From the NCBI GenBank assembly GCA_017398125.1, contig JAFQHE010000023.1:1-62628 (forward strand): 62,628 nt of DNA, read 5' to 3'. Shown here piece by piece: positions 34,047 to 55,453 of the stretch. Position 1 is the stretch's first letter. Every line of letters starts with the position of its first letter. Both the position numbers and the translations under genes were made by a program. This DNA comes from Bacteroidales bacterium (GTDB lineage: Bacteria > Bacteroidota > Bacteroidia > Bacteroidales > UBA932). The notes below the pieces were generated by a model that had not been told where the DNA came from, searched no databases, and was given only the letters and a program-made list of their open reading frames with translations.

Positions 34047-34089
34047 GCGCGCAAAAGTGTACCCACTTAGTAGACATCGCGCATTTTTT
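34047..34089 (+). terminator. GC-rich hairpin with T-run, likely terminator of the flippase gene
   Basis: GCGCG (34047-34051) pairs with CGCGC (34078-34082), and inside it AAGTG pairs with CACTT around TACC. A run of seven T follows. The long interior loop makes it atypical. Confidence 0.5.
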
Positions 34090-34105
34090 TACTAAAAAAT
34101 TATTT

Positions 34106-34122
34106 TTGGCACACGCTTTGCA
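34106..34122 (+). promoter_or_regulatory. Sigma-54 (RpoN) -24/-12 promoter
   Basis: TTGGCACACGCTTTGCA matches the RpoN consensus YTGGCACGRNNNTTGCW at all but two defined positions. GG (34108-34109) and GC (34120-34121) are exactly 10 bp apart. There is no TAnnTTTG box at this site. RpoN is encoded at 48869-50278. No enhancer-binding activator gene is in the window. Confidence 0.7.
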
Positions 34123-34132
34123 AAAGAGTAAA

Positions 34133-34206
34133 GCAAATAGTTTTTTCATAGGTTAGATTTAGGTTATAAAAACAGGTTGTTCGCACAGAGCAGCCTGTTT
34201 TTATTT
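34133..34206 (+). ncRNA. Candidate sigma-54-dependent small RNA, about 74 nt
   Basis: It lies between the -24/-12 element and a strong terminator (34173-34205). No reading frame of useful size lies inside. It contains a direct repeat, TAGGTTA twice with GATT between (34149-34166), just before the terminator stem. It resembles the unit at 9126-9205 in size, promoter class and terminator arms. I recognise no known RNA family. Confidence 0.5.
34173..34205 (+). terminator. Intrinsic terminator of the short unit
   Basis: AAAACAGGTTGTTC pairs with GAGCAGCCTGTTTT (14 bp with two G-T pairs) around a 5-nt loop GCACA, followed by TTATTTTA. Confidence 0.85.
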
Positions 34207-34232
34207 TACACCATCGCTGATTATAATAAATT

Positions 34233-34264
34233 TTTGGAGAATTGCTCTAATATCCATATCTTTG
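34233..34264 (+). promoter_or_regulatory. Vegetative promoter of rpsP-rimM
   Basis: TTTG (34233-34236), a 20-bp spacer and TATCTTTG (34257-34264). The expected start is near 34270, giving a leader of about 60 nt. Confidence 0.85.
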
Positions 34265-34328
34265 CGCACCTTTTCTCGAGAAGATAAGGACGTTAAAAAA
34301 ATTATTAATTTTTAAATTCGTACAGTAA

Positions 34329-34889
34329 ATGGCTGTTAAAATTCGTTTGGCCCGCCACGGTAAGAAAAACTACGCTTTCTTTCACATTGTAGCAGCGGAC
34401 ACCAGAGCACCACGTGATGGTCGCTTTATTGAGCTTTTGGGTACTTACAACCCTAACACTAATCCTGCAACTATCGTTTTGAACGATGACAGAGCTTTGT
34501 ATTGGTTGAATGTTGGTGCACAACCTTCTGATACTTGCCGCAGAATCCTTTCATACAAAGGTATCCTTCTTAAGAAACACCTTAATGGTGGTGTTGCTAA
34601 AGGCGCTTTGACTCAGGAGCAGGCAGATGCTAAATTTGCAGCATGGGTTGCAGAGAAAGAGCTTAAAGTCAGCAACAAGAAGTCTAGCTTGGAGCAATCA
34701 GCAAGAGCAGCTAAGAAAGCAGCCCTTGAGGTTGAGTCTAAAGTAAACGCAGACAGAGCAGCTGAGATTGCAAAGAGAAAAGCAGAGGCTGAGGCAGCTG
34801 AGGCAGCAGCTAAAGCTGAGGCAGAGGCAGCAGCAGCGGCAGCTGAGGCTGAGAACACAGAGGCTCCTGCAGAAAACACAGAGGCTTAA
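34329..34889 (+). CDS. rpsP: 30S ribosomal protein S16 with long acidic-alanine tail
   Basis: S16 of 186 residues. The conserved core [39 protein letters not shown] and [19 protein letters not shown] occupies about residues 1-85. The rest is an extended tail, ending in about 45 residues made almost only of Ala and Glu with some Lys and Arg, predicted as one charged helix. Bacteroidota S16 proteins are commonly longer than the about 82-residue E. coli form. rimM follows 5 bases later, as in many genomes. Confidence 0.96.
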
Positions 34890-35593: not shown

Positions 35594-36384
35594 ACCGTTC
35601 CAATTTCACAAGAGGCAAAAGAGTGGATCAAATATGTAACTACCAAAGCCTTAAAATCCTCTACCCTAACTTTTGCCATTGAGAAAAATGAAGACCTCAC
35701 AAGGCGCGAAGGTTCAATTACCATAACCAACGGTACCCTGACCGAAACAATAAAGGTCTTCCAGAAAGGAAACGAGTTCTCTATGGTTCTCAACAAAAAC
35801 AGCCACACCGCAAAAGCCGAAGGAGAAACCTTCTCAATAGATGTCACAAGCAGGGCCATAGAGACCGACTGCCTGAATTTCAATGTCGCTCCCAACACTA
35901 ACGGAGAGCGCAGGGAGGGAACAATCACACTCAAAGGAGGAAAGGTAACACAGACTATCAAGGTCAAACAGAGTGCTGCATCAACAGATGAGTTGTAAAA
36001 AGAGCGCGCTGCATTGATTGACCTCTACAACTCAACCAATGGTGCAAACTGGACTACAAAAACAAACTGGTGCTCAGACAAACCTCTTGGTGAGTGGTAC
36101 GGTGTAACTACTGATGCCGATGGGCATGTAATTGAGATTGATCTATCCCGGAACAATCTTGTCGGCAAATTCCTAACAGCATCGGTAATTTGACAAGTTT
36201 GACTAATCTGTATTTAAATAACAACAAACTGACCGGATCAATTCCTGAGTCAATGTGTAACTTGACCGCTCTTAAATATCTGAACTTGCAAAACAACCAA
36301 CTGACCGGCATTATTCCGGCTGGAATTTTTGCATTGGGGTTATCGCAATTTATATATGACAAAGACAAACTTACAACAGAGTAG
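35594..36384 (+). pseudogene. Decayed BACON-BACON-leucine-rich-repeat surface protein
   Basis: Reading without regard to breaks gives two BACON domains: VPISQEAKEWIKY at 35597, TLTETIKVFQKG ending near 35770, and a second ending TIKVKQSA. A Bacteroidota LRR segment follows (ALIDLYNSTNGANWTTKTNW, then IDLSRNNLVGK and LTSLTNLYLNNNKLTGSIP). The frame is broken by TAA at 35996-35998, directly before KERAALIDLYN, and by a one-base deletion near 36170, after which LRRs continue in another frame to 36384. The frame is also closed by TGA at 35591, and no signal peptide remains. Intact relatives are surface lipoproteins with BACON and LRR modules. Confidence 0.85.
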
Positions 36385-48767: not shown

Positions 48768-48856
48768 AGGTAATTATTTATTACACCCTCCAAAGGGCCA
48801 TTCAGGTTGCTAAGTTAAGAAAATTAATTATTCAACCTGCTTATAAATAAAAATTG

Positions 48857-48864
48857 TATATTTG
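48857..48864 (+). promoter_or_regulatory. Vegetative -7 box for rpoN, apparently leaderless
   Basis: TATATTTG fits TAnnTTTG. Only 4 bases separate it from the rpoN ATG at 48869. The -33 region is weak. Confidence 0.6.
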
Positions 48865-48868
48865 TAAT

Positions 48869-50278
48869 ATGTTAAAACAGGGACTACAACAAAAATTGCA
48901 GACAAAATTGTCGCCGCTTCAAATTCAGACAATCAAGTTGCTTGAATTGCCTATGCTTGAACTGGAGCAGCGCATAAAGAAGGAGCTGGAGGAGAATCCT
49001 GTACTTGATGAGGTGCCGCAATCGGAAGAGGCTGAAGACGGAACACCAAAGAATGTTTCGCTCAATGAATATCCTGCAGATGACCCCACTCCATCCTACA
49101 AGTTGTATGTCAACAACCAGAGCAAGGATCCCAAGCCGCAGTACAATACATTCTCTGTAAGGGAGAGTTTTCACCAGAGTCTTGAAATGCAGCTCGGATA
49201 CAGGAATATTGATGAGCGCACACGCTCAATTGCACTATTTGTAATTGGAAGCCTTGATGATGACGGCTATTTGCGCCGTGATCTTGAAGCCCTTTCAGAT
49301 GACATTTCATTCAGATTGAACATAGAAACTTCGGAAGAGGAGCTTGAATCAATTCTAAAGATGATCCAGGAGTTTGAGCCTGTGGGAATTGGAGCAAGGG
49401 ATCTTCAGGAGTGTCTTTTGCTGCAGATTGAGTCAAAAAGCAAGACCCGCTCACAAGAGCATGCCCTTATAATCCTAAGGGACTATTTCCAGGAGTTTAC
49501 AAAGAAGCACTACTCCAAGATCATCTCTAAAATGGGAATTACCCAAGATGACCTCAAGGAGGCAATAGAGGAGATTGTAAAGTTGAATCCCCGTCCCGGA
49601 GGGCAGATTGATGACTCCTACATTGAGCAGGCCCAGCAGATTATTCCCGATTTTGTGCTTGAAGAGAAAAACGGAGAATTATCCATGACAATGCCCAAGT
49701 TTTCTATTCCGGAGTTACGTGTAAACAAAAGATATGCTGCCCTTCTTGAAAAATCTACCGGAAGCAACGACAGGGCAGGCAAGGAGGCTGCCTCATTTGT
49801 CAAACAGAAACTTGACTCTGCAAAATGGTTTATTGAGGCTATAAAACAGAGGCAGAATACGCTTCAGAATACAATGCAGGCCATCATCGAGTTCCAGCAT
49901 GACTATTTCATGGAGGGGGATGAGACCAAACTCAAACCTATGGTTCTCAAGAATATTGCAGAAAAGACAGGACTTGACATCTCCACCATATCAAGAGTGG
50001 TGAACTGCAAATATATCCAGACACCTTTTGGCATATTTCCTCTGAAATACTTCTTCTCTGAAGGACTTATGACAGAGAGCGGAGAGGAGGTTTCAACCAG
50101 GGAGATCAAGAAGATCCTCTCAGAGAGTGTTGATGCCGAAAACAAAAACAAGCCCCTTACAGATGAGGAGCTTGTAACTGTTCTACAGCAGAAGGGATAT
50201 ATTGTGGCCCGACGGACTGTGGCCAAATATCGCGAGCAGCTGAATATTCCAATTGCCAGATTGCGCAAGGAGCTTTAG
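48869..50278 (+). CDS. rpoN: RNA polymerase sigma-54 factor
   Basis: Alternative sigma factor of 469 residues. It reads -24/-12 promoters and needs an ATP-driven enhancer-binding activator. Region I is MLKQGLQQKLQTKLSPLQIQ with a Leu/Gln-rich repeat, followed by an acidic linker (about 50-75), the core-binding domain and the C-terminal HTH. The diagnostic RpoN box ARRTVAKYRE lies near the end, at about 448-457. I start at 48869 because a longer frame begins upstream of the -7 box. It is monocistronic and ends 8 bp before the convergent SPOR gene. Confidence 0.97.
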   Translation: MLKQGLQQKLQTKLSPLQIQTIKLLELPMLELEQRIKKELEENPVLDEVPQSEEAEDGTPKNVSLNEYPADDPTPSYKLYVNNQSKDPKPQYNTFSVRESFHQSLEMQLGYRNIDERTRSIALFVIGSLDDDGYLRRDLEALSDDISFRLNIETSEEELESILKMIQEFEPVGIGARDLQECLLLQIESKSKTRSQEHALIILRDYFQEFTKKHYSKIISKMGITQDDLKEAIEEIVKLNPRPGGQIDDSYIEQAQQIIPDFVLEEKNGELSMTMPKFSIPELRVNKRYAALLEKSTGSNDRAGKEAASFVKQKLDSAKWFIEAIKQRQNTLQNTMQAIIEFQHDYFMEGDETKLKPMVLKNIAEKTGLDISTISRVVNCKYIQTPFGIFPLKYFFSEGLMTESGEEVSTREIKKILSESVDAENKNKPLTDEELVTVLQQKGYIVARRTVAKYREQLNIPIARLRKEL

Positions 50279-53445: not shown

Positions 53446-53509
53446 TAAAATTAAGTCAGAAAATCTGCTCGTGAACTTTTTATTTTTAAACTTTCGGGAG
53501 GTAGAGTTT

Positions 53510-55453
53510 ATGATAAATTTTCACAAATGCAGTATTACTGCACATTTATTTATATTCCTATTCATTGCCTTGTGCATAATTCCGTCACAACTCAATGCCC
53601 AGACGGATACTCTTGGAACCGTTGTGGTCAGTCGCACCGTAAAACAGAACGCATCCCGCAACGCAAAATTTTCACCGGGAACCAGAATCCAGAAATTTGA
53701 CCAGATACAGCAGGTCAATGCAAACAGTTCGCTGAGTGATTTTCTCAAAAACAATACTGCCATATACATTAAGGAGTACGGCCGCGGAATGAATTCCTAT
53801 ATATCCATGCGCGGAACCTCATCATCCCATACAACAATTGACTGGAATGGACAGTCCCTTGCTGTTCCAACTATGGGCCAGACAGACTTGAGCCACATAC
53901 CGCTATATTTCTTTGACAATATGTCGGTACACTCAGGTGGGAACTCTGCCCTCTACGGCAATGGAAGTTTGAGCGGCAATATCCAGCTCAGCACCACACC
54001 AACATTCAATGAGGGGGTAAGCGGAGACATCACCCTCAAGAGTGGAAGCTTTTCGACACTCTTTGGTGGAGGCACATTCCGATATGGCAAAAACGGCTGG
54101 GAGAGCCGTACAAGCGGTTACTATTCCTATGCCAAAAACAATTTCAAATTCAGGAACAACACAAAAACAGGCTTCCCGACAGAGCGTCTGAACAACTCCC
54201 AATACAACAATTGGGGAGCATTGCAAGAGGTTTTCAAAAGGTTCAAGGACCGCTCCATACTTCAGTTCAACTTCATGTATCTGCAGTTTGACAGGGAGAT
54301 ACAGCCGTCGGTTTCAAACAATATGTCGCCTGAATCATACCACTCAATTTTTGACAGGAACATAAAGGTCTCCGCTGCATATAACGGCAAGAGAGCCAGA
54401 TGGGGCTACAACGTGCGGGCCTCATACAATCACGATTATGAGCTGTATGAGGATGATGTAATTGCTGCCAGCAGAGTCTCCTCAAGTGCAGATGCCGAAT
54501 ACCGTACCGACAAGTTGAGCATACGCGGCGGCGGAAGTGTTGAATACATAAAACCAGATGTGGATGCCTACGAATCCGGAACTCAAGAATGGAGAGGCGA
54601 CCTCTTTGCACTGTTGCTATGGAATCCACTTAAACCCCTTACAATAGGTGGCGGCATACGCGGCTCCTTTGCCTCAGGCATGAGAATACCGGCCCAGCCC
54701 TCAATTGATGTAAAATATCAGATTATTGACCCCCTCAAAGAGAGGGATATAACCGAAGCAACACAAAGTCTGTCGGTAAGGGCCTCTCTCTCAAAAAGTG
54801 CCAAAATACCTACACTCAATGACCGCTACTGGGGTGGAGAGAATACCGGGCTCAAGGCTGAGACAGGCGTAACTTATGAAGTTGGAGGAGACTATACCCT
54901 TATGCAGGGCAACTGGGAGTTAAAGAGTTTTGTAACCGGATACATTTCAGACGTAAATGACTGGATACGCTGGCTTCCGGCTGGAGAGATCTGGAGACCT
55001 GCGAATGTGCCTGAAGTTTCATCACGCGGCATTGAATCGGGTGTAGGCATAACAAAAAGATGGAGAGGGTGGAAAACGTTGCTTAATGCCAACTACGCAT
55101 ATACCAATGTAAAGATGAAAGAGTCACTGCTTGCCAACGACCCGTCAATAGGACATCAGATGGCTTACCAGCCGGAACATACCTTAACGGCAAACTTGGG
55201 ATTCAATATAAGCAGACTTACAGCAACCTTCACATACAGTTATATTGGAGAGCGCACATCTACAGATATTTATGATGTAATGCCGGGGTACTCACTGCTC
55301 GATTTTGGCATTAACTATAAATTTGTACTTTTGTCGCAAGAGTGGGATGTTACGGGCGAAGTCAAAAACATACTGAACACCAGCTATCAGAATATCAGAT
55401 TCTATGCCATGCCGGGCATTAATTTTGCATTGGCGCTGCAGTGGAAATTCTAA
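53510..55453 (+). CDS. btuB: TonB-dependent outer-membrane cobalamin receptor (BtuB-like)
   Basis: Outer-membrane receptor of 647 residues. After a signal peptide (to LNAQ, about 31) come the plug (about 45-165, with ISMRGTSSSHTTIDWNGQSL and YGNGSLSGNIQL) and a 22-strand-type barrel ending in aromatic WKF. It lacks the carboxypeptidase-like N-terminal domain and has no SusD partner, so it is not a SusC. The riboswitch directly upstream and the BtuG-like gene downstream identify cobalamin as the ligand. The start at 53510 has a good Shine-Dalgarno, GGGAGGT. Confidence 0.9.
   Translation: MINFHKCSITAHLFIFLFIALCIIPSQLNAQTDTLGTVVVSRTVKQNASRNAKFSPGTRIQKFDQIQQVNANSSLSDFLKNNTAIYIKEYGRGMNSYISMRGTSSSHTTIDWNGQSLAVPTMGQTDLSHIPLYFFDNMSVHSGGNSALYGNGSLSGNIQLSTTPTFNEGVSGDITLKSGSFSTLFGGGTFRYGKNGWESRTSGYYSYAKNNFKFRNNTKTGFPTERLNNSQYNNWGALQEVFKRFKDRSILQFNFMYLQFDREIQPSVSNNMSPESYHSIFDRNIKVSAAYNGKRARWGYNVRASYNHDYELYEDDVIAASRVSSSADAEYRTDKLSIRGGGSVEYIKPDVDAYESGTQEWRGDLFALLLWNPLKPLTIGGGIRGSFASGMRIPAQPSIDVKYQIIDPLKERDITEATQSLSVRASLSKSAKIPTLNDRYWGGENTGLKAETGVTYEVGGDYTLMQGNWELKSFVTGYISDVNDWIRWLPAGEIWRPANVPEVSSRGIESGVGITKRWRGWKTLLNANYAYTNVKMKESLLANDPSIGHQMAYQPEHTLTANLGFNISRLTATFTYSYIGERTSTDIYDVMPGYSLLDFGINYKFVLLSQEWDVTGEVKNILNTSYQNIRFYAMPGINFALALQWKF

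Follow-up and report, generated by a model that had tools for sequence, protein, structure and literature searches.

Related small RNAs

Qrr, GlmY/GlmZ and CrcZ, all from Pseudomonadota, are small RNAs (sRNAs) transcribed by sigma-54 together with an activator, and Qrr occurs as multi-copy siblings. They belong to another phylum than the Bacteroidales unit described here and have other targets, and their families gave no match to it in an Rfam scan in E-value mode, the sole sequence comparison made with them. The closest described system is FopS of Bacteroides thetaiotaomicron, a set of 14 paralogous sRNAs of ~65–70 nt, each with a seed in a single-stranded 5' part, a terminator and a canonical sigma-ABfr promoter. 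By base-pairing over the start codon, these sRNAs block the translation of SusC-like glycan importers; the RRM protein RbpB binds them, with CLIP peaks in their 5' portion, and antagonises the repression (PMC11697453). The main text of the same paper describes FopS in Bacteroidaceae with housekeeping promoters, reports 12–15 copies for Bacteroides and a FopS sequence in a phage, and names sigma-factor exchange for paralogous sRNAs as a possibility; the words rpoN and sigma54 are absent from it. GibS, from the same species, has the seed called R1 in common with FopS (PMC7366714, PMC11697453). Like the unit, it has a non-housekeeping promoter (PM2), and its level is high in stationary phase; unlike the unit, it has a second seed, R2. 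PM2 is described in PMC7366714 as a near-palindromic motif at -10/-30, not a -24/-12 element, and was therefore rejected as being the same promoter.

The unit lies in a 62,628-nt contig of a Bacteroidales bacterium from the gut (GenBank JAFQHE010000023.1), hereafter the window. A previous interpretation made from the letters alone (the sequence-only reading) had proposed a sigma-54-dependent sRNA at this place and knew of no described RNA like it. The latter statement has to be given up, since FopS (Rfam RF04319) resembles the unit in its architecture, in the sequence of the core and in the target predicted. In E-value mode, FopS was the top Rfam family at the unit, with 30.3 bits and an E-value of 0.0035. 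Rfam at gathering thresholds gave nothing there, and the RF04319 cut-off (56 bits) was reached neither in the window nor in any of the 39 genomes of the genus, the best of which scored 41.4 bits. With E-values up to 0.1, RF04319 matched in 28 of these 39 genomes and left 11 without a match; in the source genome the only match was at 34140–34207, the second copy of that genome not being matched, and in a scan of nine loci there were matches in three only. We also searched with a sequence-only model of the unit's core (model R1, which its training rows match by construction): it matched in 39/39 genus genomes and at least twice in 32/39, some of the weak matches being target sites. Among the matches listed, 29 of the 32 RF04319 matches in the genus overlap matches of model R1.

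The unit and FopS are thus alike in having ~65–75 nt, a 5' seed followed by a terminator hairpin and multiple copies (two in the source genome), in the core (model consensus GUGUUUUUCAUgGUAUUAGAUUUAAGGUUAA for FopS and GUUUUUUCAUAGGUUAGAUUUAGGUUA for the unit), and in a predicted duplex with SusC-like mRNAs at their start codon. They differ in that the unit scores below the Rfam gathering cut-off, carries a -24/-12 element (25/25 loci of the first copy) instead of a sigma-ABfr promoter, and has mostly two matches per genus genome against the 12–15 copies of Bacteroides. We consider it likely that the unit works like FopS; it should not be classed as a member of that family, having fallen short of the Rfam cut-off and differing in promoter type when both were tested.

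The -24/-12 element and the transcription unit

The element TTGGCACACGCTTTGCA occupies positions 34106–34122 of the forward strand as an exact match to the sigma-54 pattern, with GG and GC 10 bp apart, as in sigma-54-dependent transcription units and as the sequence-only reading had observed. In the source genome (2.22 Mb, 86 contigs), this is the sole exact match to TTGGCAC-N5-TTGCA, and 16 places match it with at most one mismatch, compared with 4 for the reversed control pattern. The slightly shorter TGGCAC-N5-TTGCA is not in excess in the window at two mismatches (25 found vs 24.6 expected from shuffles), so that a single site proves little alone and conservation must decide. Over the 11 defined bases of this pattern, the best site has at most one mismatch in 25/25 loci of the first copy (none in 19, one in 6), a score attained by 0.1% of shuffled upstream stretches; the site at each locus was picked as the best match, and the column counts therefore lean towards the motif. 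In all 25 copies, the window's included, TGGCA[CT]-N5-TTG sits 13–22 nt upstream of the core. Loss of the -24/-12 bases in close relatives, which had been set beforehand as one of the findings that would count against the proposal, did not occur.

The gene for sigma-54 itself is encoded in the window, as had been noticed: rpoN (48854–50278, forward strand) has the activator-interacting, core-binding and DNA-binding domains (Pfam PF00309, PF04963 and PF04552). The sigma-54 activator domain has seven matches in the source genome, and the three strong ones are at G000 C10:6635, C5:877 and C29:63765; by reading, two of the three have a receiver-like N-terminus and one does not, so the genome encodes, besides rpoN, one or more enhancer-binding activators. 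A search for activator sites in 45 upstream regions gave A/T-rich top dyads, TTTGCAAA in 8 regions and ATTT-N4-AAAT in 9 (second copy only), against a maximum of 4 in plain shuffles that did not preserve dinucleotides; a convincing shared activator motif was not found among these 45 regions. Elsewhere, at G000:C69:13204-13220 (L016), a -24/-12-like site with one mismatch (TTGGCACATATTTTACA) is followed within ~20 nt by a G+C-rich hairpin and a T-run, which may be the terminator of the preceding gene or another very short unit.

If transcription starts 12 nt past the C of the -12 box and ends at the T-run, the unit spans 34133–34207 on the forward strand, a predicted sRNA of ~75 nt that reads GCAAAUAGUUUUUUCAUAGGUUAGAUUUAGGUU and continues into a 17-bp hairpin and T's, that is, a 5' part of ~30 nt and a terminator hairpin downstream of the -24/-12 element. 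The hairpin (34166–34204, -22.5 kcal/mol, with T's to 34207; terminator 34166–34207 in all) was announced by the sequence-only reading with a stem of 14 bp beginning 52 nt past the -12 box; the terminator is there, with a stem of 17 bp that begins at ~43 nt. The direct repeat TAGGTTA-GATT-TAGGTTA was found as described at 34149–34166 (repeats at 34149–34155 and 34160–34166). The statement that there is no usable frame also agrees with the data, the stretch examined having no complete sense ORF of at least 15 amino acids in 23/25 copies. The repeat is part of a conserved 5' core, TTTTTTCATAGGTTAGATTTAGGTTA (34141–34166), which we propose as the pairing seed on the grounds of the core alignment A2, model R1 and the pairing with SusC starts. 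Alignment A2 (26 rows, 39 columns) has 15 columns without any variation, and conservation reaches at least 90% in a further 8. A sigma-54-dependent sRNA with the repeat as its seed fits the conservation and pairing tests that were run, with the amendment that the putative seed is the whole ~26-nt UUUUUUCAUAGGUUAGAUUUAGGUUA and not the repeat alone. At one related locus (L043, 3487–3570), a third UAGGUUA repeat is present.

Among relatives, the sequence of the terminator varies and its pairing is kept, according to the folds of 25 units; the hairpin was detected automatically in 24/25 and by full fold in the remaining one. In six sequences of one related clade, 98.4% of the cells of the stem are paired and 5 of 21 pairs have changed on both sides. 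The 5' part is wholly unpaired in 10/25 full folds, among them that of the window, and in the other 15/25 part of it pairs with itself or with the region ahead of the hairpin, which implies that the seed may not always be free.

Copies and distribution

A BLAST search of 34080–34340 against 40 relatives matched the core in 24/24 same-genus genomes, with the promoter inside the match in 23 of them; the promoter of the remaining genome (G012) was seen on reading its locus, so that, with the loci read individually, none of the 24 same-genus genomes lacks the promoter or the core. The source genome has two copies with a promoter. The core of the second, GTTTTTCATAGTTTAAGTTTAGGTT, was read in this genome and in the 20 best-scoring others, and 20 of these 21 loci have a -24/-12 element with at most two mismatches. 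Beyond the genus, model R1 matched in 167/199 genomes of a family sample (25/25 when counted by genus), in 44/295 genomes of an order sample at E-values up to 1e-3, where sRNAs and target sites occur side by side and four of the genomes belong to the same family, and, with stricter filters and E-values up to 1e-4, in 4/296 genomes of a phylum sample, the source genome included. A pattern scan of named genomes gave at least 117 core stretches, in genomes that include, among the matches listed, Candidatus Cryptobacteroides, ruminant and horse gut Bacteroidales, Prevotellaceae MAGs and Marinifilum. Places in Chitinophaga, Pedobacter and a Pseudanabaena MAG are also among the pattern matches listed; all three are without a -24/-12 element and are probably chance matches or target sites.

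At the exact-core places in loci from the named-genome scan, 91/125 have a -24/-12 element with at most two mismatches, among the matches listed. In the loci from genome searches, the element is present in 14/18 from the family of the source genome and in 0/26 from outside it; the latter comprise 15 sRNA-like loci, 10 that lie antisense to the start of an ORF of at least 150 amino acids, and 1 unclear case. In the genomes sampled, sigma-54 control thus appears to be typical of the unit's own family and not of the whole group. At L176, L177, L180 and L205 (and less clearly at L226), a degenerate TGGTA-N6-TTG with 3–4 mismatches stands at the usual spacing directly before TATATTTG, and in the first four the upstream sequence has the look of a sigma-54 promoter that decayed and gave way to a sigma-ABfr one. 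One genome (G399) has eight matches of model R1, of which five on one contig (C89) lie ~180–205 bp apart and two on another (C42) 196 bp apart, as tandem copies. The exact core pattern was also seen in 12 stretches of viral contigs (L413–L424), some of them followed by what looks by eye like a hairpin; a -24/-12 element with at most two mismatches was found in 0/12 of these stretches, and a query with the S16 protein found no relative in the viral contigs.

Predicted pairing with SusC translation starts

When reverse-complemented, the consensus core reads as a translation start, AACCTAAAATTTAACCTATGAAAAAA. TIGR04056 served to locate SusC genes in relatives. The sample consisted of 60 start regions in 14 genus genomes, namely the first 63 same-genus rows among the matches listed minus three (two with a short upstream region and one passed over); L347 was dropped for its truncated start region, which left 59 for testing. 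Pairing was expressed as a z-score against 100 shuffled cores, with 117 ORFs from the window and from L025–L048 as controls. Values of z < -2 were obtained for 44/59 SusC starts, 15 falling short, and for 18/117 controls (p about 1e-14, this and the following p-values being only indicative because the control starts are mechanical first ATGs, the SusC starts were set by a signal-peptide rule, and there are orthologues among the SusC genes). The U-tract UUUUUUCAU pairs with any ATGAAAAAA, and its pairing with AUGAAAAAA is to be expected at lysine-rich signal-peptide starts in general; it was therefore left out in a second test, restricted to positions -45 to +3: z < -2 was then reached by 23/59 SusC starts and 5/117 controls (p 4e-12), by 24/59 and 5/117 when the targets were shuffled instead, and the difference held against the 44 controls with MK/MR-like starts (p 2e-9). 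With the full core, the predicted duplex covers the AUG in 56/59 SusC starts. AACCTA occurs near 15/59 SusC starts and 2/117 control starts; ACCTAAA alone is not enriched (3/59 vs 1/117, p 0.11). The seed is thus complementary to SusC-like start regions, as in FopS, by prediction.

In the source genome, the 22 TonB-plug genes gave duplex energies from -7 to -29 kcal/mol (L277 and L280 having truncated starts), and some SusC starts pair poorly, such as that of L376 with -10.3 kcal/mol. The site TAACCTATGAAAAA, with up to two mismatches, was counted 44 times in this genome against 36 for its control, hardly more, which places the signal in the SusC starts and not in the genome at large; the best such site beyond the sRNA copies is at the start of a 490-aa protein with no apparent likeness to SusC. 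Of the ten out-of-family loci that lie antisense to an ORF start, seven have a SusC-like N-terminus by eye, some of them from the same family. The ORF at another of the ten (L138) looks like that of DNA polymerase I, and the match there is probably due to chance. A weak match of model R1 at G008:C148:5866-5896 likewise lies antisense to the start of a SusC gene. In the window, a cobalamin riboswitch (RF00174, 53263–53486) stands directly upstream of a TonB plug domain gene (53471–55453).

Genomic context and alternative explanations

The downstream neighbour of the unit, outside it, is rpsP (34329–34889, forward strand, Pfam PF00886), coding for ribosomal protein S16 and starting 122 nt past the T-run. 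At its C-terminus, the S16 protein is extended by a long tail rich in Ala and Glu, the match to the ribosomal domain stopping at residue 67 of 186. Farther on, the window has a short ORF at 36190–36384, which we take to have leucine-rich-repeat-like sequence, and ahead of it one at 35783–35998 that presumably resembles a BACON domain. The proximity of rpsP, which lies at most 600 nt downstream in 12/25 loci, would suit a sigma-54-driven leader or attenuator whose RNA either stops at the terminator or reads into rpsP-rimM. That explanation is very improbable and was rejected as the main reading, as rpsP is not so placed in another 12/25 loci (L046 ends too soon to judge) and promoter, core and terminator are kept there as well; in one genome (G017) 1.4 kb separate the unit from the rpsP leader, and in the window rpsP has its own TATCTTTG at 34257–34264, a sigma-ABfr-type -7 element as defined in PMC7366714 that is probably a separate rpsP promoter. 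The persistence of promoter, core and terminator with and without rpsP downstream argues for an independent sRNA gene and, judged by its conservation, the unit is a real, stand-alone one. The conserved stretch could in turn be the beginning of a small protein on the opposite strand (ATG AAA AAA CTA, MKKL...), as the reverse complement of the core begins with ATGAAAAAA in most of the 25 copies. This we find hardly credible, and rejected: the frames are broken among the copies, with ORF lengths from 6 to 102 codons and no start found in one, and the codons past the start lie in the unconserved promoter spacer.

Two further explanations accept the RNA and dispute its control or its mode of action. 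Transcription by another sigma factor, with a -24/-12 element that is not a working promoter, is suggested by TAnnTTTG upstream of the same core in some relatives inside and outside the family; we hold it to be quite improbable, because upstream conservation in the unit's own lineage falls on the -24/-12 bases and because TAnnTT[TC]G is rare where they are present, occurring in the 34 nt upstream of 3/91 core places with a -24/-12 element and of 20/34 without one, among the matches listed. Somewhat better founded, and still unlikely, is the view that the core is a binding site for a protein, for example an RRM protein, and the RNA a sponge or decoy that does not pair with SusC mRNAs. UAGGUUA occurs twice in the unit and three times in L043, the source genome encodes one RRM_1 protein (an 84-aa ORF, L412:1495-1749), and RbpB of B. 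thetaiotaomicron binds FopS with its CLIP peaks in the 5' portion (PMC11697453). A sponge would however account neither for the complementarity of the core to SusC starts, which exceeds that to the control ORFs, nor for the SusC-like starts that the core model picks up in antisense.

Proposed mechanism and significance

We favour, with a probability of roughly 0.7, a FopS-like sRNA under sigma-54 that would silence SusC-like importers by pairing. Promoter, core, terminator, copies and complementarity can be read from the DNA as it stands. From them we infer that sigma-54 RNA polymerase would transcribe the unit as a stand-alone gene for a trans-acting sRNA, which should need an enhancer-binding activator, and that the hairpin would terminate the transcript. 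The 5' part (UUUUUUCAUAGGUUA...UUUAGGUUA) would pair with the translation start of mRNAs for SusC-like outer-membrane importers, whose ideal site is the reverse complement of the core given above, and the duplex would cover the AUG and block initiation; an RRM protein might have a role in this. A sigma-54 signal, and not a housekeeping promoter, would then set when glycan importers are silenced. The second sibling, whose seed differs slightly (CAUAGUUUA), is expected to be under the same sigma-54 control.

More tentatively, and as an idea to which we give somewhat less than even odds, the two siblings with different seeds might constitute, throughout the family of the source genome, a sigma-54-wired silencing of many SusC importers with a logic like that of Qrr, and one seed may have passed between sigma-ABfr and sigma-54 promoters in evolution, with the result that glycan uptake would be silenced in the same way in each lineage but in answer to different signals; the few members that seem to keep a decayed -24/-12 element beside TATATTTG (L176, L177, L180 and L205) would be in line with this.

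As regards earlier work, the words sRNA, small RNA and SusC are absent from the available part of a recent sigma-54 regulon prediction in this phylum (PMC12316311), and no report of a sigma-54 sRNA in Bacteroidota was among the matches listed in a literature search of titles and abstract starts, weak evidence of absence given that most subscription journals and preprints lay outside it. If the proposed reading is true, a non-coding target would be added to those of sigma-54 in Bacteroidota, and FopS-type control would extend to other Bacteroidales. It would also offer a testable case of sigma-factor exchange ahead of one sRNA seed, and a FopS-like RNA with a conserved sigma-54 promoter would tie an activator-dependent signal to the silencing of glycan importers.
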